A stretch of 64,000 nucleotides of DNA from Halogranum gelatinilyticum (GTDB lineage: Archaea; Halobacteriota; Halobacteria; Halobacteriales; Haloferacaceae): positions 806,001 to 870,000 of the forward strand of contig NZ_FNHL01000002.1 of assembly GCF_900103715.1 (NCBI RefSeq), in the 5' to 3' direction. This document shows positions 10,110 to 63,964 of this stretch, piece by piece (the stretch's first letter is position 1; the number at the start of each line of letters is the position of its first letter). The notes below the pieces were generated by a model. It saw only the letters and a list, made by a program, of their open reading frames with translations, was not told where the DNA came from and ran no database searches. The position numbers and the translations under genes were made by a program.

Positions 10110-10859
10110 CTAGTCCAGTTTCTCCTCGTCCGACCCGTCGCGGTGCGTCGCCAACGCCTCCTCGATAGTCAACTCGCCCGCGGCGACCCGGCGGGCCAGC
10201 GCCTCGTCGATGGTGCGGTTGTCCGCGGACTGCTCGCGCGACTCGTTTTTGATACGCTGGAGTTCTCCCCGCGTCGGTTCGATCTCGCGGCGGTCGACGG
10301 GGTCACCCTCAAGCCGCGCGATGTTGACCGCGGCGAGCACGTCACCCATCCCGCGAGCACCGGTCCCGAGGTAGGGCGTCGTCCCCGTCTCGTCGACCAT
10401 CTCGACGCGCACGTCCTGCAGTTCGTTGATGAGTTTGGCACTCTGGAGCCGGTCGCCGTCGCCGACGCGGACGACGGCGTCGGGCGTGTCCTCGATCTCG
10501 CGGTGGACGACCTCGACGGCGTCCGTAATGGGCACGTGGAAGGCCGCGACGACGACGTCGCCGACGAGCACCGCGATGCCGGGGCGGGGCCCGGGGTCGA
10601 CGCCGACGACGGTTCGGCCCTCGCTGCCGCGGAGGGACGCGAGTGCCTCCTCGACGCCGTGGCGGGCCGCGTCGGCGTGGACGACGACGTGGTCGACTCC
10701 GTCGACGCTGAGCTTGTCCGTCGGCGCGGAGATGACGACGCGGGTCCCGTCCGGCAGCTCCTCGTCCGGGCGAACCGTCGTGAAAGAGACTCCGCGTTCG
10801 CGGAGTTCACCCACGGCCTCGTGGTAGAGTTCGAAGTCATCGGTGGCGACGACGATCAC
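10110..10859 (-). CDS. Conserved haloarchaeal protein with RNase H-like fold
   Basis: A 249-residue soluble protein. After an N-terminal Rossmann-like part (IVVATDDFELYHEAV) comes GRTVVGVDPGPRPGIAVLVG (about 81-100), the first strand pair and Asp of an RNase H/RuvC-like fold, followed by VAAFHVP. A second acidic residue set is plausible but I cannot fix a full catalytic tetrad, so nuclease activity is not claimed. It is convergent with larC with five bases between the stops. Function unknown. Confidence 0.75.
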   Translation of the reverse strand: MIVVATDDFELYHEAVGELRERGVSFTTVRPDEELPDGTRVVISAPTDKLSVDGVDHVVVHADAARHGVEEALASLRGSEGRTVVGVDPGPRPGIAVLVGDVVVAAFHVPITDAVEVVHREIEDTPDAVVRVGDGDRLQSAKLINELQDVRVEMVDETGTTPYLGTGARGMGDVLAAVNIARLEGDPVDRREIEPTRGELQRIKNESREQSADNRTIDEALARRVAAGELTIEEALATHRDGSDEEKLD

Positions 10860-11020
10860 AGGCGGGATTGGCCGGGTGACAGAAAAAGGCTACCGGGAGT
10901 GACCCCGCCGCGCGTCCGGGCGGATACGTCACGCCGGAGTCGGTTTTCTCGACGGGCCAGTTCTCGAAATCGAGAACCGGAGACGAAACTATATGGGGGC
11001 GGTATGGCTCGAAAAACCCA

Positions 11021-13372
11021 ATGGAATTGCCGCTACTCTCCGACCGCCAGCTCTCGGGGTTCGTCCCGCGGGCGGTCAGACGGAGTGTGCTTCGGAAGTT
11101 CCTCGTCGTTCTCGCCGTCGTCACCGTCGTCATCGGCGGTGTCGGTCTCTACACTGTCGACCGGACGGCGGCGGAACTCGACGAGGACGTACAGACGGAC
11201 CTGACAAGCGTCGCCGAACTCCAGGCCACGGAGATCGCCGAGTGGCACGACGAACGCAGCCAACTCGTGCGGATGCTCTCACAGTACCAGGTGTTCCGCC
11301 AGGACGACACCGACAGCGTCGAGGCGTTCCTCGTCGCCGAGCGGGCGAAACTGCCCATCGATATCCGGGCGGTCCACTACGTCGAGCGCGACACGGGACT
11401 CGTCCTCGGGTCGACGGGGCAGTCGGTCGTGAGCGACCCGCCGTGGGCCAACGGCTTCAGCGTCGGCACCGACGACTCGGTGTACGTCTCCTCGGTCTAC
11501 CAGCGCGGCGGGATGCCCGTCATCGCCTTCGCCAGTGCCGTCCCCGGCTCGGACCGCGGGGTCGTCGTCGTCTCCGACGTCGCCCAGGTCGCCGACTCCT
11601 TCGAGCAGTCGACGGGCCGGTTCACACAGGTCGTCGCCGACGACGGCACCATCACGTTCTCCGCGGAGTCGAGCGACGTCCTCCTGGGATACAGCGGAGC
11701 CGAATCGTCCGCGTTTGCCAGCGCGGTCGACGGCGACACCGCCTTCGCGTCGGACGTCGACCTCGGCGCGACCGTCGAGGAGGCGCACGTCGCCGCCTAC
11801 GCGCCCGTCGACGGCACCGACTGGGTCGTCGCGGTCCACACACCGACGGCCGTCGCCTACTCGCTGGAGACGTCGATCACCCGCAACATCGGCGCGCTCA
11901 TCGCCGTCGCGCTCGCGGGCTTTCTCGCCGTCGGACTCGTCGTCGCCCGGCCGACGGCCCGAGCACTCGACCGGCTGAGCGAGCGGGCCAGGGCGCTGGA
12001 GGCGGGCGACCTCGACACGGACCTCGACACCGAACGGATCGACGAGGTCGGCACGCTCTACGCCGCCTTCGACGGGATGCGCACGTCGCTGAAGGCCCGC
12101 ATCGTCGAGGCCGACCGCGCGACCGCGGAGGCGACCGAGCAGGCCGAACTCGCGGCCGCCGAGCGCGAGCAGGCGACCCGACGGAAGCGGAACCTCGAAG
12201 CGCGGGCCGCCGAGTTCGGCCGGGCGATGGGCCGGTGTGCGCAGGGCGACCTCACCGTCCGACTCGACGAAGAGACCGACAACGACGCGCTCGCGACCGT
12301 CGCGACCGCGTTCAACGAGATGGTCGACGACCTCGAAGCGACGGTTCGGGAGGTTCGGACCTTCGCCGACGGCGTCACCGACCTGAGCGAGCAGACCGCG
12401 ACGAGCACCGACGAGATCGCCCGCGTCGGCGAGGACGTCAGTGACTCGGTGCAGGCCATCGCCGACGGTGCCGACCGCCAGCACGAGAACGTCGACGAGG
12501 TGACGAGCGAGATGACCGGCCTGTCGGCGACGGTCCAGGAGATCGCCGCCTCGGCCGACGAACTCGCGACGCTCTCGGCGCGGGCGGTCGACCGAGGGAC
12601 CGAGGCGAACGAGTTGGCGACCGCCGCGGTCGACGAGATGGACGACGTCGAGTCGAGCACCGAACGGACGGCCGCGGAGATCGGTCGGCTCGAAGCCGAG
12701 ATGGGAGAGGTCGGCGAGGTCGCGGAACTCATCGACGACATCGCCGCTCAGACGAACCTCCTCGCGCTCAACGCTTCCATCGAGGCGGCGCGGGCGGGCG
12801 AAGCGGGTGACGGCTTCGCCGTCGTCGCCACCGAGATCAAGGCACTCGCCGAGCAGACCGCGACGGCGACGGGCGAGATCGAGACGCTCGTCGAGGGGTT
12901 GCAGGCGACGACGACGGACGCGGCCGAGGATATGCGCGAGACGCGCGAGCGGGTCGCCGAGGGCATCGACACGGTCGAGGCGGCACTCGGGGCACTGGAC
13001 GACGTCGTCGACCATCTGGAGGACGCCGACGCCGGTGCGCGCTCCATCGACGACGCGACCGACGAACAGGCGAGTGCCAGCCAGCAGGTCGTCGTCATGG
13101 CCGAGGAAGTCGCCGACATCAGCGAGGCGACGGCCGACGAGTCCTCGACCGTCGCGGCCGCCGCCGAGGAGCAGGCGGCCTCTCTCAGTGAGGTGTCCGA
13201 TGGCATCGACACGCTGTCGCGCCGCGCCAGCGACCTCCGTGAGCTGCTCTCGCGGTTCGAGGTGTCGGCGGTCGGCGACGGTGAGGTCGGCCGGAGCCGG
13301 ACCCCTGTCGCCCGAACGACACACACCGACGGCGGCCACGACGGCGACGGCTTCGTCTTCGGTAGGGAGTGA
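11021..13372 (+). CDS. Methyl-accepting chemotaxis-type transducer (Htr) with extracellular sensor domain
   Basis: Membrane receptor that would signal to CheA/CheW. Domains in order: TM1 at about 24-46, an extracellular dCache-like sensor 50-285 ([16 protein letters not shown]), TM2 at about 291-315, HAMP 316-370 and a second HAMP-like stretch 395-450, then the coiled-coil signalling domain. Its conserved hairpin tip is at about 571-610 ([20 protein letters not shown], then [10 protein letters not shown]). The ligand cannot be told from sequence. TATA-like ACTATAT at 10988-10994 is about 29 bases before the ATG, indicating a leaderless transcript. No che genes are nearby. Confidence 0.92.
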
Positions 13373-41354: not shown

Positions 41355-42986
41355 TTACTTGGTCCGCCGGAGGGCGATGAGGCTGACGAGGAGCAACGCC
41401 ACGATGACAGCTATGACGCCGAACCCCGGCGCGCTGCCGCCGGAGATTCCCCCGGCTTGTGGCCCGTCGTCGTCGACCGTCGTCGCGACGGCTTCGAGCG
41501 ACGAAACCGGTGTCCCCGTGGTCTGTGTCGCCGTCGGCTCGGTCATCGGCACGGCCGTCGCCTCCGAGGTCGGCGAGGGGGTCGGCTCCGGCGTCGGTGG
41601 CTCGCTCACCACCAGTTGGCCGACGACCTCCGTCTCACCCAGTGTGAGATTGTACGTGCCAGCAGTGCCAGCGGCGTAGGTGACCTCGAACTCGGCCGTC
41701 TTACCGGCGGCCACCGTCGCGGTCAGCGTCTCGAGGAGCTCGTCGCCGACGGACAGCGTCTCCTCGTACGTCCCTTTCGCGTCACCCTCGTTTGCGACGA
41801 CGACCAGTACGGTGGTCGTGTCCCCCGGTTCGAGGGCCGCAGCCGTCACGGTCACGTTGCGGACGACGAACGCCGGTTCGGGCGAGTCGGTCGTCTTGGA
41901 GTCACCGCCGCTGCTCCCGCCGCTGCTTCCGCCGCTGCTACCTCCGCCACTGCTACCGCCGCCACCCGAACCGCTTGGCGTCGCGGTTGGTGTCGCGGTC
42001 GGTGTTGCCGTCGGCGTCGCGGTCGGTGTTGCCGTCGGCGTGGGGGTGGCCGTCGGCGTTGCGGTGGGCGTCGCTGTCGGAGTGGCCGTCGGCGTTGGCG
42101 TCGGCGTCGGCGTCACGGTCGGTGTCGCTGTTGGCGTCGCTGTCGGAGTGGCCGTCGGCGTTGGCGTCGGCGTCGGCGTCACGGTCGGTGTCGCTGTTGG
42201 CGTCGCGGTTGGTGTTGCTGTCGGCGTCGGCGTCGGCGTCGCGGTCGGCGTTGGCGTTGGCGTCACGGTCGGCGTTGGCGTCGGCGTCGGGGTTGGCGTC
42301 ACGGTCGGTGTCGGGGTTGGCGTCGGCGTTGGCGTCGGCGTTGGCGTTGGCGTCGGCGTCGGCGTTGGCGTCGGCGTCGGCGTTGGCGTCGGCGTTGGCG
42401 TTGGCGTCGCGGTCGGGGTTGGCGTCGGCGTCGGCGTCACGGTCGGCGTCGGGGTTGGCGTCGGGGTTGGCGTCGGCGTCGGGTCCGCGGCGATACTGAC
42501 TGTGACGCCCTCGAACGCGCTGGGAGCGACGGACTCCCCGCTCGCGCTGGACAGGACCGTGTCGCCCTCGACGAACGCGAGACTGGTCTCTTGGCCGCTC
42601 GTCCCCACCAGTTCGAGCGTCAGTTCGGCGAGCACCGGCCCGTCGACGCCGCCGACCCGCAGCTGATTGAACGTGACCCATCCCGTCTCGTTGTCGATGG
42701 TCTGGACAGGGTCTGCGAAGTCCGCACTCCCGTCGACAGCCGTGACCTGCACGACGCTGGGGTCGAACGTCAGCTTGGCCTGGTAGCCAGCGACGTTTCG
42801 CGCGTCCGTCCAGACCTGGACCGTGACCACGTCGTTCGCCGCCCCCGAGACCGGGGTGCCGTCGCCGACGTGAACCGAGACTGCATCCGAGAACGCGAAG
42901 CCGGGGATGCTCAGGCCGACCGCCGCAGTGAGCAGCACGGCCACGAGTATCGCGGCCTGCAGCCGCGTGCGGGTGGGGGCGGTCAC
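41355..42986 (-). CDS. Surface-anchored cohesin-domain protein with Pro-Thr stalk and PGF-CTERM tail
   Basis: 543 residues. A signal peptide (about 1-32) is followed by a cohesin-type domain (about 33-165; [40 protein letters not shown]). Next is a Pro-Thr stalk of about 170 residues, a Gly/Ser stretch, a CARDB-like beta domain (about 367-458; [20 protein letters not shown]), a second P/T linker, and a C-terminal APGFG motif, membrane helix ([16 protein letters not shown]) and RRTK. That tail is the PGF-CTERM signal processed by archaeosortase A to give lipid attachment. The gene directly upstream, two bases away, ends in a dockerin, so the two proteins are probably bound to each other on the cell surface. 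Confidence 0.87.
41977..42486. repeat. Pro-Thr-coding microsatellite-like array
   Basis: About 510 bases of imperfect GGCGTC/GGTGTT hexamers (read on the plus strand) with higher-order units of 60-66 bases seen repeated near 42040-42200 (the phrase GTCGCTGTCGGAGTGGCCGT occurs twice). It encodes the P/T stalk of the cohesin protein and must be prone to length change. Confidence 0.9.
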
Positions 42987-42988
42987 GG

Positions 42989-44287
42989 TTAGCTCCCTCC
43001 GAGGTAGTTGTTCAGCGAGACGGCGTCGGCGATGTCGACGCGGCCGTCACCGTTGACGTCCGCCATCGACTGGTCGACGGAGCCGCCGCGCCCGGCGAGA
43101 TGGTTCTGAATCCGAGCGACGTCGTCGCCGTCCAGATCGCCGTCGCCGTCGACGTCACCCACCCACGAGGCGGGATCGAACCGTTCGTCGAAGCGGAGGT
43201 CGAAGCTGAACTGGCTGTCGGCGTCGGTTTGGTATTCGTCGAGACTCGGCGAGTAGGTGACGAAGCTGATTCGGTCGGTTCCGCCCGCCCCGCCGCCGGG
43301 GACGAACTGGACGAGCCGCATCCAGCCGTTGCCGCCGTTCGGGTAGTCCTGGTAGTCCGCGAGTGCCTCGAAGACGGGGAGTCCCGCGTCGTTCTCGAAC
43401 ACCTGGTGGTACTCACCATCCGGCCTGTGGTCGTGCCCACAGCAGACGAGGAAGACCTGTGGGTTCCGCCTAATGAGCTTCTCCCAGACCTGCTCCCCGG
43501 TGTTGCCGATTCCGTTTTTTTCGAAGAGCTCGGTCGAACGTTCCCCTTTCTCCTGACGTTTTTCCTCCAGGTAGTAGTGGGTCGTCAGAATCGTGGGCAG
43601 GAACCGGTTGCTGTCGAGCACCCGCTGGGCCCAGCCGAGCGACGTCGACGCTTGGTCGGTTTCACCCGGCGGCTCCAGTTCCAGTGCCAGATGCAGGAAC
43701 TCGTAGTCGCCGCCGGAGAAGTACTGATAGAAGTTCAGCGGCTTCTCCCGCGGCCCGGACCCCCCGAACCAGTCGTAGCCGTCGTACCGGCTGGCACCGA
43801 AGTACGTCTGGAAGTTCTCGATGGACGACGTTCTGTCGCCCTGGACCGCCCAGTCGTGGTTCCCCGGAATCGCCGAGTACGGCACGACGCCGTCGAGTCT
43901 CGACATCACCGCGTCGATGCGGTCCCACTCCCCGACGTCGTCACCGTTCTCGACGAGGTCGCCCTCGTGGGTGACGAACCTGATGTTCTCGGCGTCGCGG
44001 TTGTCGACGACCCACTGTGTCTGGTCGTGGGCGTACGGGATCAGTTCGTCCGTCTCGGTGTAGAACTGGGTATCCGGCATCACGGCGACGGTCCAGTAGC
44101 CCGGGTCGGCACTGACCGGGCCGCTCGTCATCGGCAGGGCGGAGAGTCCGATACCGGCACCGACGGTGCGGATGACGTCGCGGCGAGTGAGCCCGGACGA
44201 CGGCGGCTCGCTCTCGCTGGACGGCAGGGTAGTGTCCTCTGTGGCCGTGAGGCGGGGACGATGCTTCGGCTGGTGTCTGTACTTCAT
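42989..44287 (-). CDS. Tat-exported calcineurin-like metallophosphoesterase with C-terminal dockerin
   Basis: 432 residues. The N-terminus has a Tat signal ([20 protein letters not shown]). The phosphoesterase domain (about 55-365) shows the metal ligands [28 protein letters not shown] and [10 protein letters not shown]. The last 60 residues are a type-I dockerin: two calcium loops [14 protein letters not shown] and [20 protein letters not shown]. Dockerins bind cohesins; the next gene, two bases downstream, encodes one. The pair predicts a cell-surface phosphoesterase held by a lipid-anchored scaffold. Substrate could be phosphodiester or phosphorylated polysaccharide; unknown. Confidence 0.9.
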
Positions 44288-48188: not shown

Positions 48189-49712
48189 TCACTCCGAGGG
48201 GTCGGGCGAGAGGCTCTCGAGCATCCGTCCGAAGTTCCGGCGGATCTCCCACCCGAAGAGCGACTCCAGTACGACGACGGCAATCGCGTAGAGAACGGTG
48301 CCCGCGCCGACGAGCAGCACGAAGTTGAGAAGCGACCCGAACGGCAGCTGCGTCTGGACGTACCAGACGCCAACGCCCATGAAGATGCTCGCGAGACCGG
48401 GGTAGAGGAACTCGTAGAGGATGTCCGTCACGCGCATCTCCAGCTCCCGTGCGGTGATGAGGATGTCGAGCGGCATCATCGGGAAGACGAAGATGATCGT
48501 GATGGCGAGTGCCGTTCCCGTGATGCCGTAGCGCGCCGTCAGGGGGTAGATGATGATCGCCATGAGGACGACGCGGAGCGCCGAGAGCTTCGTGATGTAG
48601 TCGGGGCGGCCGACGGCCTTCCAGACCGGGCTGAAGGTCCGGCCGATAGCCCGGAGCAGCCCGTAGATGGCGAGTACCTGCATCGCCGGGACGGCGACCA
48701 TCCACTCCTCGCCGAAGAACGCCATGATGAACGTGGGAGTGACGACGGCGATCCCGACCGACGCCGGGAACGCGAAGAGTGCGGTCATCCGGAGCGTCTT
48801 CAGATACGCCCGCCGGAAACTGGGCATATTGCCCTGGAGTTTCGAGAACGCGGGGAACATGACGCTCTCGACGATGCCGGAGATCTCCGTCGCTGGCGCG
48901 TTCGCAAACCGGTAGGTGTACTGGTAGAACGCCAGCATGGTCGGGTTCAGGAACCAGCCGACGAACGCGTCGTCGCCCTCGCTGTAGAGGAAGTAGAGGA
49001 TCGACGAGCCAGTCAGCCACTTGCCGTAGCCGACGAGCTCCTTCGCGATCTCCAGGTCGAACTCGGGCCACGGCCGGTAGTCGTGGATGAGATACGAGAT
49101 GAACAGCCGGAGGACGTCCGCGGCGAGGAAGCCCGCGACGAACGACCACGCGTCCGGCGACACCAGTGCCCAGCCGACGCTGACGGCGAACTGCGCCCCG
49201 TCGCCGACGATCTTGTAGGCGAACTCCTTGTGGAAGTCGAGGTTCTTCTGGAAGTAGACGAGACCGGGGTTCTGGAAGGCGAGGATGACCGGCGAGAGCG
49301 CGATTGCCCGGATGGGCCACGTCGCCGCCGGCTCGCCGAACACCGTCGTCGCCAACACCGGCGCGGCGAGGAACAACACGACGCCGATGAGGAGTCCGCG
49401 GGCGATTTCGAGCACCCACGTCGTGTTCAGGTGGGAGTCGACGTCCGCCTGCTCCTTTTGAATCAATGCTGCGTTCAGTCCGATGTTGGTGAACTTCCGC
49501 ATCGCGCTCAGTCCGAGGAGACCGATGCCGACGATGCCAAGTTCACGGGGACCGATGAGACGGGCCAAAATCACCAGCATGGAGAGTTGGAGCACTCGGC
49601 TGGTCACGTTCTGTCCCGCCAGCCAGACGATACTCTTCGCGACCCGCTCTCCGACCGACCCGGAGGGGCTCAGTCTGCTGATAAGTGCCCGGACTCTCTC
49701 GATGGGGCTCAT
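48189..49712 (-). CDS. Polysaccharide/oligosaccharide flippase (Wzx/MOP family)
   Basis: 507 residues with about 12-14 membrane helices (for example LQLSMLVILARLIGPRELGI, GIAVVTPTFIMAFFGEEWMV). The motif ARLIGPRELGIVGIGLL and the following alternating helices match polysaccharide transport proteins that flip lipid-linked glycans across the membrane. The N-terminal cytoplasmic tail precedes SIVWLAGQNVTSRVLQ. Within the cluster this is the likely exporter of the repeat unit made by the glycosyltransferases. Confidence 0.9.
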   Translation of the reverse strand: MSPIERVRALISRLSPSGSVGERVAKSIVWLAGQNVTSRVLQLSMLVILARLIGPRELGIVGIGLLGLSAMRKFTNIGLNAALIQKEQADVDSHLNTTWVLEIARGLLIGVVLFLAAPVLATTVFGEPAATWPIRAIALSPVILAFQNPGLVYFQKNLDFHKEFAYKIVGDGAQFAVSVGWALVSPDAWSFVAGFLAADVLRLFISYLIHDYRPWPEFDLEIAKELVGYGKWLTGSSILYFLYSEGDDAFVGWFLNPTMLAFYQYTYRFANAPATEISGIVESVMFPAFSKLQGNMPSFRRAYLKTLRMTALFAFPASVGIAVVTPTFIMAFFGEEWMVAVPAMQVLAIYGLLRAIGRTFSPVWKAVGRPDYITKLSALRVVLMAIIIYPLTARYGITGTALAITIIFVFPMMPLDILITARELEMRVTDILYEFLYPGLASIFMGVGVWYVQTQLPFGSLLNFVLLVGAGTVLYAIAVVVLESLFGWEIRRNFGRMLESLSPDPSE

Positions 49713-50018: not shown

Positions 50019-51212
50019 TCACTCGGCGTCCCGGCGGAGATAGTGGGCCAGCCCGTGGGCCATCGTCGCCTCACACCACCGCATGAGCGTGATCCGCTTC
50101 GTGTAATATCGTCGCCGCTCGTAATAGAAGCGACCCTTGCCGTTCGAGAGGTTTTCGACGGCCCACCTGATCACCGGCTGGGCGAACTCGTCGCCGAGCA
50201 TCGAGAAGACGACGGCCCCCTGTGCCGAGGAGTGGACGTCGCGGGGATACTCGTGTCGCTCGTCGTTGTGCGGCGCGCCCGCGTCGGTGAACAGCCCCCG
50301 GTAGAACGGAAGTGCCGTGTCGAGCGTGCTCGCGTACCGCTCCGAGCCGGTGACGTCACCGTACCGGAGGAACGACTCGACGATGAAGCCGTTGTGGAAG
50401 TTGTCCTTCGAGAGATGCGACGACTCCGGCGGGTCGCGGTAGAGCCAGCCGCCCTCGGGTGTCTGTTGGGCGGCGACGTAGTCGAGGATGTTCGTCGCCG
50501 CCTCGCGGAGCCGGGAATCGCCCGACGCCTCGTAGAGGTTTATCAGGAGCCGCGCGCCCAGCGCGTTGGCGTTGAGCGTGTAGTTCTCCCCCGTGTCGAG
50601 GGGTTTGTACTTGATGCGCGCGCCGTCGGGATGCGTCGCGTACTCCAGATCCTCGAAGACGAAGTCGGCGGCGGTGAGCGCGACCTCGCGGTACCGGTCG
50701 TCAACGTGGGCCGCCGCCAAGAGCAGTGCCTCGACGGCGTACGCCGTGCCGACGATGCCGGGGACGTTCGGCTCGTTGCGGTAGTCGAGACCCTGCAGCG
50801 GATGTTTGTGGCCGCCGCAGAAGCCGCTGTAGCCCGTGCTCCGGTTGTCGACGAGCCACTCGACCAGCTCCCGGCCGTCGTCGAGGAACCGTCGCTGGCC
50901 GGTCAGCTCGTAGGCCCGGAAGTTCGCGATAGCGAAGAGCGCGATGCCCATGAAGTTCCGCCGCTGTTCGACGCGGAGCAGCGGGCGGACGTTGACCGGG
51001 GCGCGGCGGACGGCCTGCTGAAACACGAGGTTCAGCCACTTGTTGTCGACAGGCAGTGCTCGGAGAAGCCGGCTGCTCTCGCCGTCGTACAGGTCCCAGC
51101 CGCGGTAATCCCGCGCTCGGGCGTAGTCGAGGACGTTGACGAGCTGGTGGAGTACCCACTCGTCGTGGAGGTGGTCGGTGGCGTCGGAAAGAGTGCCGTA
51201 GTCGAGGCTCAT
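50019..51212 (-). CDS. Alpha/alpha-barrel protein, epimerase or glycan-hydrolase type
   Basis: 397 residues of paired helices with conserved aromatic/Gly-rich turns (VEWLVDNRSTGYSGFCGGHK, EGGWLYRDPPESSHLSKDNF, NGFIVESFLRYGDV), as in six-hairpin glycosidases and glucuronyl C5-epimerase-like proteins. No signal peptide, so it probably acts on cytoplasmic sugar intermediates. I start at MSLDYGTLSDATDHL, whose ATG overlaps the stop of the upstream gene (ATGA). It is the last gene of a coupled three-gene unit. Catalytic residues not assigned. Confidence 0.72.
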   Translation of the reverse strand: MSLDYGTLSDATDHLHDEWVLHQLVNVLDYARARDYRGWDLYDGESSRLLRALPVDNKWLNLVFQQAVRRAPVNVRPLLRVEQRRNFMGIALFAIANFRAYELTGQRRFLDDGRELVEWLVDNRSTGYSGFCGGHKHPLQGLDYRNEPNVPGIVGTAYAVEALLLAAAHVDDRYREVALTAADFVFEDLEYATHPDGARIKYKPLDTGENYTLNANALGARLLINLYEASGDSRLREAATNILDYVAAQQTPEGGWLYRDPPESSHLSKDNFHNGFIVESFLRYGDVTGSERYASTLDTALPFYRGLFTDAGAPHNDERHEYPRDVHSSAQGAVVFSMLGDEFAQPVIRWAVENLSNGKGRFYYERRRYYTKRITLMRWCEATMAHGLAHYLRRDAE

Positions 51213-52735
51213 TCGAGGTAGCCGAGGTCTTCGAGTCGCCGTTCGAGTTCGTCGGTGTCTTTGGTCTCTCGGCCGCCGTATGCCTCGAGTGGCTCTCGGG
51301 TACCCGTCTCGGGGAGCCCGTCGCGGAACGGTTCGGCGAACGCGACGCCGTCCATGTCGGTCGGAACCGGACAGTCCAGATAGCGAAGGACCGTCGGCGC
51401 GACGTCGAGAATCGACTGCATCGGAAGCTCGCCCGCCGTCACGTCGGGACCGTGGACGAGGAGGACGCCAACGGGATGGTTGCCCGAGGTCCACGAGGTG
51501 ACCTGCCGCTCGACGACCGAGGGGGTCACCCCGCCGTAGATCTCCCAGGAGTCGGCGGCGGTGAGCAGCAGGTCCGGTGCCTCGTCGAGATGCGGGCCTT
51601 CGTAGACGTCTTCGGCGTAGTTGACCGCAGCGAACGGACACGCGCCGTCGACTCTGATTGCTTCGAGTTCAGCCTTCAGCTCGTCGCGGAACCGCTCGTA
51701 GTCGTCGCCGAGGCGGTCGCGGTTGATGTAGAGGGGACCCTGGCTGAGGGCGACGGCGTCCGACTCGTCCCACTGGACGCGGTTGGCGAGTTCGAACGTC
51801 GGAATCGGATAGCCGGACGCGACGAGTCGCTCGTAGAGTGCCGTCGGGAGCACCGTCCGGGCGACGGCACCGACTGTCCGCGGCGAGAGGCCGACTCGCT
51901 TCAACAGCGTGTAGAGACCGCCGGAGATGTCGTCCCCGGTCCGCCGTTCGATGGAGAGATGGCCCTCGTCGAGCAGATACTTGTTCAGCACGAAGGTGTG
52001 CTCGATGTGCGAGTGGCCGTGGTCGGAGTAGACGATCTTCGTCAGGTCGTCCGGCAGCTTGCCGAGATACTCGTCGATGAGCATCCAGCCGCGTTCGGTC
52101 TCCGGGCCGTCGCCGAACTGGTGCTGGAGGACGTTGATGTAGAACACCGTCAGGTGGATGTAGTCGTAGCCCTCCTCGAGCAGGTCGAGCAGGAGGTCGA
52201 ACCGCGAACGGATCAGGTCGAGCGCGTCGTCGACGCCGCTGGACGCGTGGACGTCGTCGACGCCGACCTGCCAGCCGTACTGCTCTTCGAGGAGCGACTG
52301 GACTTCGGGCGGATACGTCATCGGCTCGTCGTCGAGAGCGACCTCGAAGGGCGCGCCGAAGCCCGAGACCATCGTCCCGTTCAGCGGCGAGGGGGGATAC
52401 GTCATCGGGACGTTGAGGACGGCACACCGCTTGCCCGCCTCCGAGAGGTAGTCCCAGGTATCCGCGGTGTCGAACGACCGCGCGTCGGGCGCGGTGATAC
52501 GGCCGGATTCGCGGTCGAGGTTCAGCCACCAGTAGACGCCGAGCTTGCCGGGGTTCTTCCCCGAGGTCGAACACCGCCAGGCGGGACAGGTCACGGGCGG
52601 GACGACGGTCTGCAGCGGTGCGCGGCTGCCCTCCGCGACGAGTCGCGAGAGGTTCGGCAGCTTCCCCTCGTCCATCATGCGGTCCAGCTTGTGCCAGGCG
52701 GCCCCGTCGAGTCCGAGCGTGAGCAGTCGCGTCAT
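51209..52735 (-). CDS. Alkaline-phosphatase-superfamily phosphodiesterase/transferase
   Basis: 508 residues. The fold of type-I phosphodiesterases is visible: LLTLGLDGAAWHKLDRMMDE (first metal Asp), the nucleophile region TVVPPVTCPAWRC with Thr, YINVLQHQFGD, VYSDHGHSHIEHTF with metal ligands DHGH, and a late SGNHPVGVLL with His. No export signal. Members act as nucleotide pyrophosphatases or transfer phospho-groups; in a glycan cluster it may modify a polymer precursor. Starts in the ATGA overlap with the FemAB-like gene and ends in one with the barrel gene. Confidence 0.85.
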   Translation of the reverse strand: MTRLLTLGLDGAAWHKLDRMMDEGKLPNLSRLVAEGSRAPLQTVVPPVTCPAWRCSTSGKNPGKLGVYWWLNLDRESGRITAPDARSFDTADTWDYLSEAGKRCAVLNVPMTYPPSPLNGTMVSGFGAPFEVALDDEPMTYPPEVQSLLEEQYGWQVGVDDVHASSGVDDALDLIRSRFDLLLDLLEEGYDYIHLTVFYINVLQHQFGDGPETERGWMLIDEYLGKLPDDLTKIVYSDHGHSHIEHTFVLNKYLLDEGHLSIERRTGDDISGGLYTLLKRVGLSPRTVGAVARTVLPTALYERLVASGYPIPTFELANRVQWDESDAVALSQGPLYINRDRLGDDYERFRDELKAELEAIRVDGACPFAAVNYAEDVYEGPHLDEAPDLLLTAADSWEIYGGVTPSVVERQVTSWTSGNHPVGVLLVHGPDVTAGELPMQSILDVAPTVLRYLDCPVPTDMDGVAFAEPFRDGLPETGTREPLEAYGGRETKDTDELERRLEDLGYLE

Positions 52736-53754
52736 CGGAACCTGCGGTAGAGGTCGGAGACGACGTTCATCGTCCGCGTGCCGCGTTCGATCTCGAAGTA
52801 GAGGTTCGTCTCCGGGTTGAACTTCGCCTTGTACTTGCTGATGTGGGGGGTGTTCGCCCCGACGAAGCTGTACGTGGTCTTGCCCGCCTCGATGCCGTCG
52901 ACGATGGACTCCCAGACGAGAATGTCGTTGACGTTCAGGTCGGTCTCGACGGTCGGCTTCGGCGACCCCTGCCAGAGCATCACGCTGTCCGTATCGTGAA
53001 GCATCAGGTTGCCGCTGACGGGCTCGCCGTCGATATCCAGCACGTAGACGAGGAGGCTATCCTCGGGCAGGGCGTGATAGAGGTCTTCGATGTACGCCGA
53101 GTCGAGGACGAGACCGCCGTCACCCTCGTCGTACCGGGAGTTGACGCGGCCGAGGACGTACTCGAGGCCTTCCAAGCCTCGCTCTTCGACGACGTAGGCG
53201 TCCTCCGGCGTGTTCGTCACTGCCGTTCGGGCGTCGCGTGCGAAGCCCTCCAACAGGGCCTCCTCGCCGACGGTGATGTCGAGGTCGTAGGTGTACTTCG
53301 GCATCGTCTTGAAGTCGTTCCACTGGAAGGGCCGGACGTCGTCGTAGCCGGTCTGCGTGACCGTGTGGACGTACTTCGGGTTGAGGTTCGACTCGATCCA
53401 CTTCAGACAGCTCTCGATGAAGCCGAGATTGCGCTTCTCGAAGCGACGCTGTTTGAGATGCTCGTAGTTGAACAGCACCGGGCCGAGATGCGGCACACCC
53501 AGGCCGGGCGGCGGCGAGAAGACCGTCGTCACCGGCCCCTTCGTGACCTCGAAGACGGGGAAGATGCCGACCGGCTCCTGGCCCTTGTAGCCGACGAGGG
53601 GGTGGAGCGTGGCGTCGCTGTGTTCCTCGATGACGCGGAGGACCTCGTAGCGGTGGAACAGCGACCCCATCGGCGACCGCTCGACGAGGTCGTTCCACTC
53701 GCCGTGGAGTCCATCGAGTGTCGCGTCGTGCCGTGGTTCGACGGTGATACTCAT
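52732..53754 (-). CDS. FemAB/GNAT-type acyltransferase
   Basis: 340 residues with the double-GNAT layout of FemAB-like proteins: SLFHRYEVLRVIEEHSDATL, IFPVFEVTKGPVTTVFSPPP, KYTYDLDI, and the second domain LDIDGEPVSGNLMLHDTDSV with NDILVWESIVDGIEAGKTTY. FemAB proteins transfer aminoacyl groups, and related ones occur in exosortase-linked EPS loci. I start at MSITVEPRHD; the frame is open 73 codons further but that part lacks family similarity. First gene of the coupled three-gene unit. GTATAACGATATTG on the minus strand near 53864-53877 is a promoter candidate. Confidence 0.82.
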   Translation of the reverse strand: MSITVEPRHDATLDGLHGEWNDLVERSPMGSLFHRYEVLRVIEEHSDATLHPLVGYKGQEPVGIFPVFEVTKGPVTTVFSPPPGLGVPHLGPVLFNYEHLKQRRFEKRNLGFIESCLKWIESNLNPKYVHTVTQTGYDDVRPFQWNDFKTMPKYTYDLDITVGEEALLEGFARDARTAVTNTPEDAYVVEERGLEGLEYVLGRVNSRYDEGDGGLVLDSAYIEDLYHALPEDSLLVYVLDIDGEPVSGNLMLHDTDSVMLWQGSPKPTVETDLNVNDILVWESIVDGIEAGKTTYSFVGANTPHISKYKAKFNPETNLYFEIERGTRTMNVVSDLYRRFR

Positions 53755-54113: not shown

Positions 54114-55202
54114 ATGAGATACGTGTTCTTCACAAACACGCCCGCACACGTCCATCTGTACAAGCACGCGGTCCGCGCGCTCGAAGCCGAGGGCCACGAC
54201 GTCCTCGTCCTCGGGCGGGACTACGGCTGCACCGAAGCACTGCTTGCGTACTACGACCTCCCGTACGAGATCTACGGCAAAGTAGAGACGACCAAGTATT
54301 CGCTGGCCCGCGAGTTGCCGAAACACTACGCGTCGATTCTGCGGAAGGTTCGCGCGTTCGACCCCGACCTCATCTTCGGGATGGGCGGCTATGCGGCGCA
54401 CGCGGGCGCGCTCACCCGGACGCCCGTCGTCCTGATTCTCGACTCCGAACCCACCTCCCTCGACCATCTCGTCTCGCGGCCCTTCGCCGACCTCATCATG
54501 ACGCCGTACACGTTCGGCAAAGACCTCGGCCCCAAACACTACCGCTTCGCCGGGTTCAAAGAGACCGCGTATCTCCACCCCGACGTGTTCGAACCGGCTC
54601 CCGACGTCCGCGAGCAGCTCGGCGTCGCGCCGGACGAACCGTTCGCGCTCGTCCGGTTCAACGCCTTCGGCTCCCACCACGACGTCGGCCACCGCGGGTT
54701 CAGCCCCGCCCAGCGCGTCGAGTTGATCGAACGGCTCGCCGAGCACGTCACGGTGTTCGTCACCGACGAGGGCGACGACCTCGACCTCACCGACCTCCCC
54801 GCCCGGCCGTACGACGTCCACCCCGCGCTCCTCCACGACGTCCTCGCGGAGGCGCGCGTGCTCGTCGCCGACACCCAGACGATGGTGACGGAGGCGGCAC
54901 TCCTCGGAACTCCGGCGATCCGCTCGAACTCCTTCGTCGGCGACGACGACATGGGCAACTTCGTCGAACTCGAAAAGCGGGGACTCGTCCGGAACCTCCG
55001 GTCGTTCGACGACGTCCTGACGACCGCGGTCGCGTTCGCCAGCGACCCCGAGATAGAACGCGAATGGGCGGCCCGCCGAGACGAGTACGTGGGTGGGCTG
55101 ATCAACCTCACCGACCTGATTACGGCCGTAGCGACGGATACGTACAGACGCGGACACGTCGAACGCCCAACCGACGAGTTCGCCCGACAGCTCGGCGTCT
55201 GA
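54114..55202 (+). CDS. DUF354 protein (GT-B-like, UDP-GlcNAc 2-epimerase-related fold)
   Basis: 362 residues. The start RYVFFTNTPAHVHLYKHAVR and FDPDLIFGMGGYAAHAGALT, LILDSEPTSLDHLVSR and the C-terminal VLVADTQTMVTEAALLGTPA with NFVELEKRGL identify DUF354, a two-Rossmann-domain family resembling glycosyltransferase B and UDP-sugar epimerases. No membrane segments. It occurs in many archaeal surface-glycan loci; activity is not established. Confidence 0.85.
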   Translation: MRYVFFTNTPAHVHLYKHAVRALEAEGHDVLVLGRDYGCTEALLAYYDLPYEIYGKVETTKYSLARELPKHYASILRKVRAFDPDLIFGMGGYAAHAGALTRTPVVLILDSEPTSLDHLVSRPFADLIMTPYTFGKDLGPKHYRFAGFKETAYLHPDVFEPAPDVREQLGVAPDEPFALVRFNAFGSHHDVGHRGFSPAQRVELIERLAEHVTVFVTDEGDDLDLTDLPARPYDVHPALLHDVLAEARVLVADTQTMVTEAALLGTPAIRSNSFVGDDDMGNFVELEKRGLVRNLRSFDDVLTTAVAFASDPEIEREWAARRDEYVGGLINLTDLITAVATDTYRRGHVERPTDEFARQLGV

Positions 55203-55393: not shown

Positions 55394-56284
55394 TTACTCC
55401 TGCCGTCCGAGCGGCAGCCGCTCGTGCTGGACCAGCCACTCGTAGAGTTCGCCGGGGGGACCGACCCAGCCGTCGCTCGCGAGCGCGTACTCGACGAGAT
55501 GGCGGTAGAGCCGTCGGTAGCCGGGGAACTCTGCCTCGTTGAAGTAGCGTGGATGCCAGAGGACGGTCCCGACGGCCTCGTTGGCGGCCGCTTCGTCGAC
55601 CAGTGCCTCGCAGGCCGCCGCGGCCGCCGAGAAGTCGGTTCCGGGGTCGGGGAACGCGACCTCCATCCCCGTCAGGGGGAAGACCACAAACTCGTCGTCG
55701 AAGGGGACGATCGGATCGTAGCCGTGGAGGAAGCCGACCGACGACCGGGAGCCGAGACTCGCGTCGTAGCGAAAGCCGAGGTCACGCTGGACACGCCACG
55801 TCGACGGCCCCAGCTTGAGATGGTGTTGCCGACAGCCAGCCACCTCGTGGCCCAGGAGCGACTCCAGCGTCGCCTTCTCTACTGCCAGCCGGTCGGGGTC
55901 GCTGTCGGTGTGAAACGAACCGTGGACGCCGATCTCCCAGCCGCCCTCGTCGAGCGTCCGGAGCACGCCGACCAGCTCGTCGTCGGTCACGTCGTACCGT
56001 CCGGCGTGTTCGACGAGGTTCTCGACGGACGCCCACTCGCCCGGCGGCCGCGTGGCGAACAGACTCGGCTCGTTCAGGACGTAGAACGCCGAGCGGACGC
56101 CGAGATCAGCCTCCAGCTCCGCGATTGACTCGAACTGCCAGTAGGGGTTCGCCCCCGGCAGGAGCGCGCGCAGATGGGACGGCGACCGCTCACTGAGCGC
56201 GAAAGCCAGGCTCTGATACGTCTTGTACGGCCGGTCGACGTCGTGAGTCAGACAGAGCGCGAACGGCGCGTCGGCTGGGAGCAT
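55394..56284 (-). CDS. Polysaccharide deacetylase-family protein
   Basis: 296 residues. NodB-type motifs: LCLTHDVDRPYKTYQ (about 10-24, first metal Asp pair HDVD), EIGVHGSFHTDSDPDRLAVE (metal His pair, H-x3-H) and GTVLWHPRYFNEAEFPGYRR near the C-terminus. It may N- or O-deacetylate a nascent surface polysaccharide; there is no export signal. I start at MLPADAPFALCLTHD; the frame is open upstream but becomes arginine-rich. Similar genes belong to exosortase-linked EPS loci in bacteria. Confidence 0.87.
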   Translation of the reverse strand: MLPADAPFALCLTHDVDRPYKTYQSLAFALSERSPSHLRALLPGANPYWQFESIAELEADLGVRSAFYVLNEPSLFATRPPGEWASVENLVEHAGRYDVTDDELVGVLRTLDEGGWEIGVHGSFHTDSDPDRLAVEKATLESLLGHEVAGCRQHHLKLGPSTWRVQRDLGFRYDASLGSRSSVGFLHGYDPIVPFDDEFVVFPLTGMEVAFPDPGTDFSAAAAACEALVDEAAANEAVGTVLWHPRYFNEAEFPGYRRLYRHLVEYALASDGWVGPPGELYEWLVQHERLPLGRQE

Positions 56285-59802: not shown

Positions 59803-59986
59803 TCGTAGTAGTCACCGTCTTACAAGCTGCTAGACAGCCTGCGAACGGCCGACTCGTGGCCGATTCGTCGCTGACTCGTGGCCGGTTCGTCGCCGACCTA
59901 TCGCCGACTCCTCGCTGACTCCGTGGCCGAACGCAACGGTTACGCATACAATTACTTTGCCGTCTCTGAGTCTGTACAGAGATACG

Positions 59987-61111
59987 ATGGAAAAGCTCCG
60001 TGTCCTCGTCGTCGGCCCGGCAAAGCGGCAGTCGGGCGGCATCGCACGCTACATCTCCGAGCAACGCCGACAGCTGGCAGGACACGTCACCGTGGACCTC
60101 TTCGACACCGACACTGGGCCGGTCGACGGTCCGCTCGACCTCCTCCGCGGCGGTCTCACCGCCCTCTCGGGATGGGCGCAGTTCACCCGCTGCCGACGGC
60201 CGGACGTCGTTCACGTCCACAGCTCTCACTACCGCTCGTTCTATCTCTCGTCGTTCTACGTGCTCTACGCGGCCCACGTCTGGAAGCGGCCGGTGATCCT
60301 CCACGTCCACGGCTCGTCGTTCGACGAGTTCGTCCGCGACGCCTCGGGCCCCGTCGCCGCGTTCCAGTCGCTCGTCTTCGACGCCGCCGACACCGTCGTC
60401 GTCCTCTCCGACTACTGGAAGGACATCCTCGCGGCCCGCGTCGACGAGCACAAGCTGGCCGTGCTCCCGAACGCGGTCGTCCACGACGAGTACGACCCCG
60501 TCGAGACGTTCTCAGCCACCGACGACTCGTCGGTCCCGCACGTCGCGTTCGTCTCCAACCACGTCGAGCGGAAGGGCATCAGGGAGACGGTCGAGGCGGT
60601 CGCGGCCCTCTACGACCGCGGCTTCGAGTTCCGGACGACCATCGCTGGCGCGGGACCGCTCTCGGCACACGCGGAGGAACTCGCGGCGCGCTACGAGGAC
60701 GTGGAGTACGTTGGCTTCGTCTCGGAGGCCGACAAACGGCGACTCCTCTGTGAGAGTTCGATCTACGTCCTCCCGACGTACGCCGAGGGACTCCCCATCG
60801 CGATTCTCGAAGCGATGGCCGGAGGGAACGCCATCGTCTCGACGACCGTGGGGAGCATCCCGACCATCGTCGACGACGAGAACGGCGTGCTCGTCCCACC
60901 GGGTGACGCCGACGCGCTCACCGACGGACTCGCACGGCTGCTCACGGACGCCGAGGCGACCCGGCAGATGGGCCGCACGAGTCGGCGGCGGGTCGTCGCC
61001 GACTACTCGTGGGACGGGATGACGGACGAACTCGTCGCGCTCTACGAGCGTCTCGCGGCCGTCGCTCCCCCCGATGTCCGCCCGGAGTCCGACCCGGTGG
61101 CGAACGACTGA
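59987..61111 (+). CDS. GT4 glycosyltransferase
   Basis: 374 residues, GT-B fold: KLRVLVVGPAKRQSGGIARY with the N-terminal Gly-rich loop, VVHVHSSHYRSFYLSSFY, VILHVHGSSFDEF, then the C-terminal donor domain VAFVSNHVERKGIRETVEAV, YVGFVSEADKRRLL and the E-x7-E motif EGLPIAILEAMAGGNAIVST. These define glycosyltransferase family 4. I start at MEKLRVLVVG. The stop lies three bases before an insertion-sequence end. Confidence 0.92.
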   Translation: MEKLRVLVVGPAKRQSGGIARYISEQRRQLAGHVTVDLFDTDTGPVDGPLDLLRGGLTALSGWAQFTRCRRPDVVHVHSSHYRSFYLSSFYVLYAAHVWKRPVILHVHGSSFDEFVRDASGPVAAFQSLVFDAADTVVVLSDYWKDILAARVDEHKLAVLPNAVVHDEYDPVETFSATDDSSVPHVAFVSNHVERKGIRETVEAVAALYDRGFEFRTTIAGAGPLSAHAEELAARYEDVEYVGFVSEADKRRLLCESSIYVLPTYAEGLPIAILEAMAGGNAIVSTTVGSIPTIVDDENGVLVPPGDADALTDGLARLLTDAEATRQMGRTSRRRVVADYSWDGMTDELVALYERLAAVAPPDVRPESDPVAND

Positions 61112-62200: not shown

Positions 62201-63964
62201 CTAGTCGTCGAGGACCTGCTGCATGAACAGCTCGACCGTCGTGACCTGTGCGAGGAAGCCGAGCCGGTCCGCCTTCTTGGCCATGTGTTCGGCTCTGAGC
62301 GTCGTGAGCGCGTCGGCGTCGAACACGTCGCGGCTGGCGGCCGACCGGAGCACGTCGTCGAGATACCCCTGGAACGCGTCGTTCTCGCGGTACCAGTTGC
62401 CGATGTCGCTCGAAGACAGCCCCCGCTGGACGACGTTCTTCGCGACGAAGCCGACGCCGTGGGCGAGGTAGGGAGACGACGTCGGGAGCTGCGTGCCCTC
62501 GTACGGGATGTGCGAGAGCCGCCCGTCGCGGTCGAGTGCCCGCATCAGCTTCAGCTTCATCGGCGACGGCACGTGCGGAATCGGCATCCGTCGGTGCAAG
62601 AACGGCTCCGTCCGGTACTCGACCGGGAGCTGGCCCGCGAGTTCGAGCAGGCGGTTGTTCGGCAGCTGCTCGCGGGTCCCGACGCGGGCGCGGGCGATCT
62701 TGTTCGAGAGGAAATGCTTCCGCGGGGTGTAGTTGGCGTGGGTGATGCCGAGGATCTGCGCGTCGCGGCCGGTGAAGGGACTCGCGCGCACCTCGTCGAT
62801 GAACGTGTCCTTCGGCTCGATATTGCTCGCCAGCACGTCCGTCACTAGCTTTCCGTCCCAGAGCGCGTGCATATCGTACAGCACGTCGCCGGGATACGCG
62901 GTCCCGCCGAGTCGCGTCGACCAGACGTGTTCCCCGCAGAGGATGGCCGACCCGGAGCCTTCGCACATGACGCCGACGTCAGTCGGGTCGACGTCGAAGA
63001 CGGCCGAGAGGTTCACCATCGTGTTCCAGCCGACCAGCCCGTCGCTGATGTCGACGAGTTCGCCGATCCGGTCGGCGACGACGTCGGGCGTGTGCGAGAA
63101 GACCTTGTGCTCGACGCCCAGTGCCTCGGAGACCTCGCTCGCGATGTCGACGTCGGTGCGGAACGGGCCGAAGTCAGACCCCAGCGGGCGGTTGTACGTG
63201 TACGTCTTGAACGGTTTTCCGGCGGTGTGCAACGAGGCGGCGAGCATCCGGCTGTCGAGTCCTCCCGAGAGCCAGAGCCCGGTCGGTCCCTCAATGCTCC
63301 GTGCGATGTCGCCGACGGCGTCGTCGTACGCGTTCGCGAAGTCACCGACGAAGTCGAGACCGCGGTACGTGCCGAACGGGAACGACCAGTAGCGTCGTTC
63401 CTCCCAGTGGCCGTCCTGATACAGGACGTAACAGCCCGGCCGGAGCGACTTGACCTCGCGAACGAGCGTCTTGTCGCCCCAGACGTGCGCCATCAGCAGC
63501 ATATCGGAGACGGCCTGTTCGTCGAGCGTCGGGTTATCGACTGCCCGGACGACCGCCGAGAGTTCCGACCCGAAGGTAAAGGGGTCGTCGGCGGTGTAGT
63601 ACATCGGTCTCGTGGCGGTCTTGTCGGTCGCGATGACGATGCGTCCCGAGGCGGTGTCGATACAGGCCATCGAGAAAGGACCGTTCAGTTGGGGGAGCAC
63701 GTCGTCCGGCGTGTCGAGAATCCGGCGGACGAGCTCGGGCGTGAAGTCGATATCCTTGTTGGAGACGACACCGTAGACGACGCCAGCGACCGACCCGTCG
63801 TCGACGATGGTGTGGCCCGTGGGATCCCGCTCACCGTGGTGAATGATCCCAAACGGAACGTCGGTCGACAACCGCTCGTCGACGTGGAACGTCCGTTGAT
63901 ACGTCCCATTAGAGAGAACACTTGCATCAGGCGCGTCTTCGCTTCCGCCAAACAGCCCCGGCAT
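62201..63964 (-). CDS. Asparagine-synthetase-like protein lacking the glutaminase cysteine
   Basis: 587 residues. The N-terminal Ntn-glutaminase-like domain (about 1-165) starts MPGLFGG where active enzymes have Met-Cys-Gly, so glutamine hydrolysis by this domain is unlikely; GVVYGVVSNKDID and FGSELSAVVRAVDNP are still recognisable. The synthetase domain has the PP-loop LWLSGGLDSRMLAASLH (about 230) and later KFxx-like regions, so ATP-dependent amidation or adenylation may continue with free ammonia. Related proteins sit in exosortase-type EPS clusters. Not assigned to cellular asparagine supply. Confidence 0.85.
   Translation of the reverse strand: MPGLFGGSEDAPDASVLSNGTYQRTFHVDERLSTDVPFGIIHHGERDPTGHTIVDDGSVAGVVYGVVSNKDIDFTPELVRRILDTPDDVLPQLNGPFSMACIDTASGRIVIATDKTATRPMYYTADDPFTFGSELSAVVRAVDNPTLDEQAVSDMLLMAHVWGDKTLVREVKSLRPGCYVLYQDGHWEERRYWSFPFGTYRGLDFVGDFANAYDDAVGDIARSIEGPTGLWLSGGLDSRMLAASLHTAGKPFKTYTYNRPLGSDFGPFRTDVDIASEVSEALGVEHKVFSHTPDVVADRIGELVDISDGLVGWNTMVNLSAVFDVDPTDVGVMCEGSGSAILCGEHVWSTRLGGTAYPGDVLYDMHALWDGKLVTDVLASNIEPKDTFIDEVRASPFTGRDAQILGITHANYTPRKHFLSNKIARARVGTREQLPNNRLLELAGQLPVEYRTEPFLHRRMPIPHVPSPMKLKLMRALDRDGRLSHIPYEGTQLPTSSPYLAHGVGFVAKNVVQRGLSSSDIGNWYRENDAFQGYLDDVLRSAASRDVFDADALTTLRAEHMAKKADRLGFLAQVTTVELFMQQVLDD

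Follow-up and report, generated by a model that had tools for sequence, protein, structure and literature searches.

The closest described system is the linking-sugar (Wbp/Vim) pathway of the bacteria Porphyromonas gingivalis and Tannerella forsythia. As described in PMC7468200, the Wbp enzymes of Porphyromonas produce a 2,3-di-N-acetyl uronic acid, with VimE as the putative deacetylase. The choice between adding serine and adding glycine depends on VimA, and the sugar becomes linked to the C-termini of proteins; VimA matches TIGR03019, and in other bacteria vimA-like genes lie beside deacetylase, glycosyltransferase and asparagine-synthase-like genes. Glycan editing is also described in the archaeon Halobacterium salinarum, where Agl32 is a C5-epimerase (PMC13308652) and where glycan sulfotransferases of the alkaline-phosphatase superfamily, one of them cytosolic, are encoded (PMC11980604). 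Here we analyzed a stretch of 64,000 nucleotides from Halogranum gelatinilyticum (NZ_FNHL01000002.1, positions 806,001 to 870,000; the window), in which three genes that we call FEM, AP and BAR follow one another on the minus strand:

52732..53754, minus strand: FEM, FemABX/VimA-like acyltransferase of 340 residues, the first gene of the trio (PF13480, 47.6 bits against a cut-off of 22)
52732..52735, minus strand: overlap of the FEM stop and the AP start, ATGA (sequence)
51209..52735, minus strand: AP, alkaline-phosphatase superfamily, nucleotide pyrophosphatase/phosphodiesterase branch, 508 residues, with Asn201 replacing a metal-ligand Asp (PF01663, fold, residue tables)
51209..51212, minus strand: overlap of the AP stop and the BAR start, ATGA (sequence)
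50019..51212, minus strand: BAR, (alpha/alpha)-barrel protein of 397 residues with an N-acylglucosamine 2-epimerase superfamily fold (model, match to 9l8i_A)

We read the trio as a cytoplasmic operon for sugar tailoring within a surface-glycan pathway of haloarchaea that is related to Wbp/Vim of bacteria and in which FEM would carry out a Vim-like amino-acylation, and from gene families and gene context we put the probability of this reading at about 0.5. The order FEM-AP-BAR was found at six loci, with every junction between -4 and +1 bases: the window, a locus of the same family (L038, genome G048), Halorubrum rubrum (L129), Halorubrum sp. 48-1-W (L130), Halospeciosus flavus (L131) and Halorientalis marina (L133). 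The junction pairs are -4/-4, -4/0, 0/-4, 0/-4, -4/-1 and -4/+1 bases, and since the same order recurs with such spacing the grouping goes beyond chance. The six BARs, together with one Halosimplex BAR that lacks the arrangement, form a clade (support 100/99) covering three families, Haloferacaceae, Halobacteriaceae and Haloarculaceae. Of the other five trios, four (L129, L130, L131 and L133) have a CE4 gene on the FEM strand, upstream of FEM. The co-occurrence in other genomes that a previous sequence-only reading of this DNA had proposed as a check was thereby found, at five further loci and over three families in all; judged from gene order, FEM-AP-BAR is a real conserved operon in a Wbp/Vim-like haloarchaeal glycan setting.

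The coordinates bear out the four-base ATGA overlaps that the sequence-only reading reported at both joints, although its expression "fused translationally" was too strong, as it is the reading frames that overlap and coupling can only be supposed from this. We rejected the overlap as evidence in itself, because in the same genome all four junctions of the WbpI-A-B-E-D operon are four-base overlaps (one with a GTG start), which makes an ATGA overlap alone unremarkable. It had also been argued that such coupling usually means a single pathway or fixed stoichiometry; the six loci in three families speak for the single pathway, and fixed stoichiometry found no support. A Kyte-Doolittle scan, which reports hydropathy and is not a signal-peptide program, found 19-residue windows above 1.6 neither in FEM nor in AP, and a single one (1.65) in BAR. 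This agrees with the earlier statement that no export signal is evident in any of the three proteins and makes a cytoplasmic location likely.

To place the trio among its relatives we counted the neighbours of 79 BAR loci, the best of 512 candidate stretches and a sample biased to BARs near the query. Gene classes were assigned by tblastn with queries from the window, Haloferax and a few others, which misses more divergent genes, and loci ending at a contig edge were counted as without neighbours. The flanks held FEM at 57 of the 79 loci, a DUF354 glycosyltransferase at 50, CE4 at 46, any Wbp gene at 44 and AP at 30, and both FEM and CE4 were present at 42, so that the surface-glycan context proposed earlier is supported by these gene classes. 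Pooled counts (152 FEM, 123 BAR, 71 DUF354 and 77 AP copies, and 43 FEM-centred loci without BAR) mix loci in and beyond the 79 and include some repeatedly, such as the Salinigranum marinum locus as L045, L075 and L125. In these, an AP gene stood directly beside FEM on the same strand for 37 of the 152 FEM copies (30 AP-FEM, 7 FEM-AP), and at 25 of the 43 FEM-centred loci. As a control for this adjacency we used 18 other gene classes: BAR gave 6/123, which are the trios, DUF354 gave 3/71, and 16 classes gave none. The pairing of FEM with a neighbouring AP gene is both recurrent and specific. Across 119 genomes of the host family BAR occurs in 31 (E<=0.001), FEM in 47 (E<=1e-10) and the AP superfamily in all 119. 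As a separate observation, BAR is followed at several FEM-less loci by a family of about 325 residues (L078:13185-14162, L077:13276-14247) that has no Pfam or NCBIfam match and may stand in for FEM.

The trio could also be a loose grouping, in which three common haloarchaeal glycan genes were joined once and spread as a cassette while acting on independent substrates. This would fit with BAR, FEM and AP each standing apart in most relatives, and with a trio that occurs at six loci and is absent from both same-genus relatives that have BAR. We consider it improbable, as the junction spacing is near-constant over six loci and three families and Asn replaces the metal-ligand Asp in 6/6 trio APs as compared to 0/71 others; the near-constant junctions and the trio-only Asn together suggest co-adaptation. 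Separate genes with no shared context, the finding named in advance as contrary to the sequence-only reading, were seen in their first half only: the genes are separated in most relatives, but mostly inside similar glycan clusters.

The chemistry of the trio is best approached through FEM. Alignments were made from subsets picked for diversity (34 of 74 FEM frames, 24 of 35 AP, 16 of 41 CE4, and 43 BAR frames), and when the profile of the 34 FEM proteins was compared with PDB, all eight matches at E<=0.01 were FemX, FmhB or aminoacyl-tRNA-dependent peptide synthase (best E 1.5e-8). An NCBIfam scan of the same proteins matched TIGR03019 in 22 and FemX in two. Amino-acyl transfer, presumably with aminoacyl-tRNA as donor, is, on these profile matches, the likely activity of FEM and the best-supported reading of the trio chemistry. 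The previously suggested amino-acyl or phospho decoration is hence retained in its amino-acyl part, as the likely FEM step, and a phosphoryl step by AP is a guess. The likeness to FemX and FmhB is a profile-level similarity across the C-terminal half of FEM and does not extend to the acceptor: archaea are not known to have peptidoglycan, and the FEM acceptor must therefore be another molecule. Haloferax loci (e.g. L073:21468-23697) have a tandem pair of FEMs, 36% identical, right after BAR, and these perhaps perform two acyl-transfer steps.

AP matches PF01663 alone (114.8 bits, cut-off 23), and its profile matches are phosphonoacetate hydrolase (E 2.5e-14) and nucleotide pyrophosphatases. A structure model of AP (mean predicted local distance difference test, pLDDT, 82.6, with a low-confidence stretch at 265-309) had 7n1s_B as best fold (Z 29.2, 3.3 A over 341 residues), and the 50 fold matches listed were all nucleotide pyrophosphatases/phosphodiesterases, autotaxin or phosphonoacetate hydrolase. 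We rejected AP as a sulfotransferase of the sulfatase branch (PF00884), given the match to PF01663 only and folds that are all of the pyrophosphatase/phosphodiesterase type. Like the PF01663 enzymes, AP has a Thr (T49) at the nucleophile place and keeps D10, H205, D238 and H239, all five being present in 24/24 aligned APs; unlike them, it has Asn201 where the 19 non-trio proteins of the alignment have Asp. Mapping 77 AP copies gave Asn in 6/6 trio copies, and among the 71 others Asp in 66 and a motif not matched as searched in 5. The metal-ligand set of the two-metal nucleotide pyrophosphatases is thus incomplete in AP, and the alignment leaves the last His ligand ambiguous. The weakened site is the one that we take to activate water, the nucleophile-holding site being intact (Xanthomonas enzyme, LtaS, EptA), and the superfamily's single-metal transferases work with the nucleophile-holding site only. 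Because of this combination, and by analogy with those enzymes, a transferase is a fair guess for AP.

BAR reaches no Pfam cut-off and was placed by its fold. The model is an alpha/alpha barrel (pLDDT 95.0) with cellobiose 2-epimerase 9l8i_A as best match (Z 32.2, 3.1 A over 339 residues), so that the likeness to the N-acylglucosamine 2-epimerase/cellobiose 2-epimerase superfamily covers the whole length of the fold, at 14% identity. An epimerase is the likeliest guess for BAR on the strength of this model. A GH88 unsaturated glucuronyl hydrolase was rejected, with 17 bits against a cut-off of 26.6. Homologues of BAR are labelled "antibiotic ABC transporter permease" in the plasmid records H1, H3-H5, H9, H10 and H12-H14, a label that is contradicted by the soluble alpha/alpha barrel of the model.

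Another possibility is heparin-like uronic acid editing, in which BAR would be an Agl32-like C5-epimerase, AP a glycan sulfotransferase like VNG1056C/VNG1057C and FEM an accessory acylator. The Halobacterium system does show glycan editing in a haloarchaeon by AGE-fold and AP-superfamily proteins, and the nearest folds of Agl32 are AGE-superfamily epimerases, as are those of BAR (PMC13308652 and PMC11980604 for the Halobacterium proteins). In contrast, AP is a PF01663 protein with pyrophosphatase-type folds, whereas the Halobacterium enzymes best resembled sulfatases, and their cluster is anchored by aglB. No match to the BAR profile was found around aglB at E<=10 in nine genomes of one other family, in the window's own genome (G000) and in G038, Agl32 itself not being among the targets. 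We hold uronic acid editing to be quite improbable. 

The trio lies in a cluster whose other genes are consistent with Wbp/Vim-like tailoring:

55394..56284, minus strand: CE4, VimE-like deacetylase upstream of FEM (NF053580 E 2.2e-11, under cut-off; the start codon is our choice)
54114..55202, plus strand: MurG/DUF354-like glycosyltransferase, divergent from FEM (PF04007; DUF354 in 50/79 BAR loci)
48189..49712, minus strand: Wzx-type flippase downstream of BAR (PF13440, 244.6 bits)
59957..61111, plus strand: GT4 glycosyltransferase (PF13692; homologue in the Haloferax mediterranei cluster)
62201..63964, minus strand: asparagine-synthase-like amidotransferase (PF00733; TIGR01536 E 1.1e-24 and TIGR03108 E 1.4e-17, both under cut-off), possibly a WbpS-like step

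CE4 shares the strand of FEM and lies 1.6 kb upstream of it, with one opposite-strand gene between. VimE is the only NCBIfam match of this CE4, as it is for all 16 haloarchaeal CE4 proteins scanned, so that a VimE-like deacetylase near the FemAB gene is present as a likeness, not as a family member. A WbpI-A-B-E-D operon is found on the same contig (G000:C2, ~915.6-920.9 kb). WbpI is above the wecB cut-off and WbpA above that of NDP-sugDHase, and WbpB, WbpE and WbpD were assigned by Pfam and homology to the Haloferax run; the Wbp names are our own, from family and gene order, the records having nucleotide sugar dehydrogenase, Gfo/Idh/MocA oxidoreductase, DegT aminotransferase, acyltransferase and WecB. 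The Haloferax mediterranei plasmid pHME505 carries all of these elements within 18 kb, in the order AsnB, GT4, DUF354, WbpD, E, B, A, I, CE4, BAR, FEM, FEM, and the Haloferax mediterranei homologues of the window's AsnB, GT4, DUF354, CE4, BAR, FEM and flippase are 30-65% identical.

Several observations weigh against the Wbp/Vim-like reading. The matches of the window's own proteins are far under the family cut-offs, FEM reaching 33.3 bits (E 2.5e-8) with TIGR03019 at a cut-off of 260.35 and CE4 43 bits with VimE (NF053580) at a cut-off of 440, and 12 of the 34 FEM proteins have no TIGR03019 match at E<=0.001. The Wbp operon is ~53 kb from CE4 and outside the window. In the 20 kb of L038 no CE4 or Wbp gene was found despite the trio, both same-genus relatives with BAR (L039, L040) are without FEM and AP beside it, and FEM was not seen at 22 of the 79 BAR loci. 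The substrates and steps of AP and BAR are guesses. Finally, among the 43 FEM-centred loci without BAR, CE4 occurs at only 6 and any Wbp gene at 20 within the stretches covered.

The low CE4 count, with three or more Wbp genes at 13 of the same loci, would also fit if FEM were a FemAB-fold transferase that uses acyl-CoA to put an acetyl or other acyl group on a polysaccharide, and the trio an ordinary operon for exopolysaccharide decoration without any amino acid. That the Pfam match of FEM is the GNAT-type PF13480 points in the same direction. The profile matches in PDB at E<=0.01 argue otherwise, as they comprise only FemX, FmhB and the aminoacyl-tRNA-dependent peptide synthase, and we regard acyl-CoA-dependent decoration as unlikely, while giving it real weight.

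Gene order, families and context are what was seen in the sequence, and from these we infer all catalytic steps, the donor, the step order and the final glycan of the Wbp/Vim-like pathway. In this scheme the Wbp enzymes would make UDP-2,3-diacetamido-2,3-dideoxy-uronic acid, CE4 would take off one N-acetyl group and FEM would add an aminoacyl group from aminoacyl-tRNA to the freed amine. On the same intermediate AP would then probably transfer or cleave a phosphoryl or phosphodiester group, while a sugar would serve as the substrate that BAR would probably epimerise or otherwise isomerise, both of these being guesses; the flippase would export the modified sugar last. The substrate of the trio may be lipid-linked or nucleotide-linked.

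Compared with the pathway of Porphyromonas and Tannerella (PMC7468200), the likeness consists in a VimE-related CE4, a FemAB protein with the TIGR03019 match that VimA also has, Wbp enzymes encoded on the contig of the trio and an asparagine-synthase-like gene in the cluster. The differences are an archaeal host, matches far under the family cut-offs, the distance to the Wbp genes and the added AP and BAR. Since this pathway is a precedent, the novelty that had been suggested for the combination in the trio does not extend to the amino-acyl idea as such. A literature search that left subscription papers mostly outside found no paper on haloarchaeal FemAB, VimA or Wbp, nor one that links FemAB to archaeosortase, and the genes of the exopolysaccharide cluster of Haloferax mediterranei are not stated in the available text on it (including PMC9769981).

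If the Wbp/Vim-like reading is true, archaea have surface sugars of the Wbp/Vim kind that bear an amino acid, and the acceptor of an archaeal FemAB protein becomes testable. It would also give a function to genes labelled "GNAT family", "alkaline phosphatase family" or "antibiotic ABC transporter permease", and the Asn-for-Asp change offers a direct handle on whether a cytoplasmic AP-superfamily enzyme has turned transferase. A more far-reaching version would have a haloarchaeal Wbp/Vim-type pathway build a diamino-uronic sugar that is amino-acylated, carries a phosphoryl modification and is epimerised, and whose free amino group anchors sorted surface proteins by their C-termini in a type IX-like manner, with AP as a one-metal cytoplasmic phosphotransferase lacking the water-activating metal ligand; this we consider a long shot.

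Elsewhere in the window, a cohesin-like protein (41355-42986; PF00963 E 4.8e-5, slightly short of the cut-off) whose C-terminal tail is PGF-CTERM-like adjoins a dockerin metallophosphatase (42989-44287; PF00404 E 2e-10), and by sequence the two are a possible archaeal cohesin-dockerin pair. The aglB gene of the window's genome is on another contig (G000:C3). About 9 kb from aglB (L072:9196-10734 and 10794-12215), a PF01663 gene sharing 4 bases with a flippase gene is found together with a PF00884 sulfatase-branch protein, and these aglB-proximal genes resemble the sulfotransferase genes of Halobacterium.

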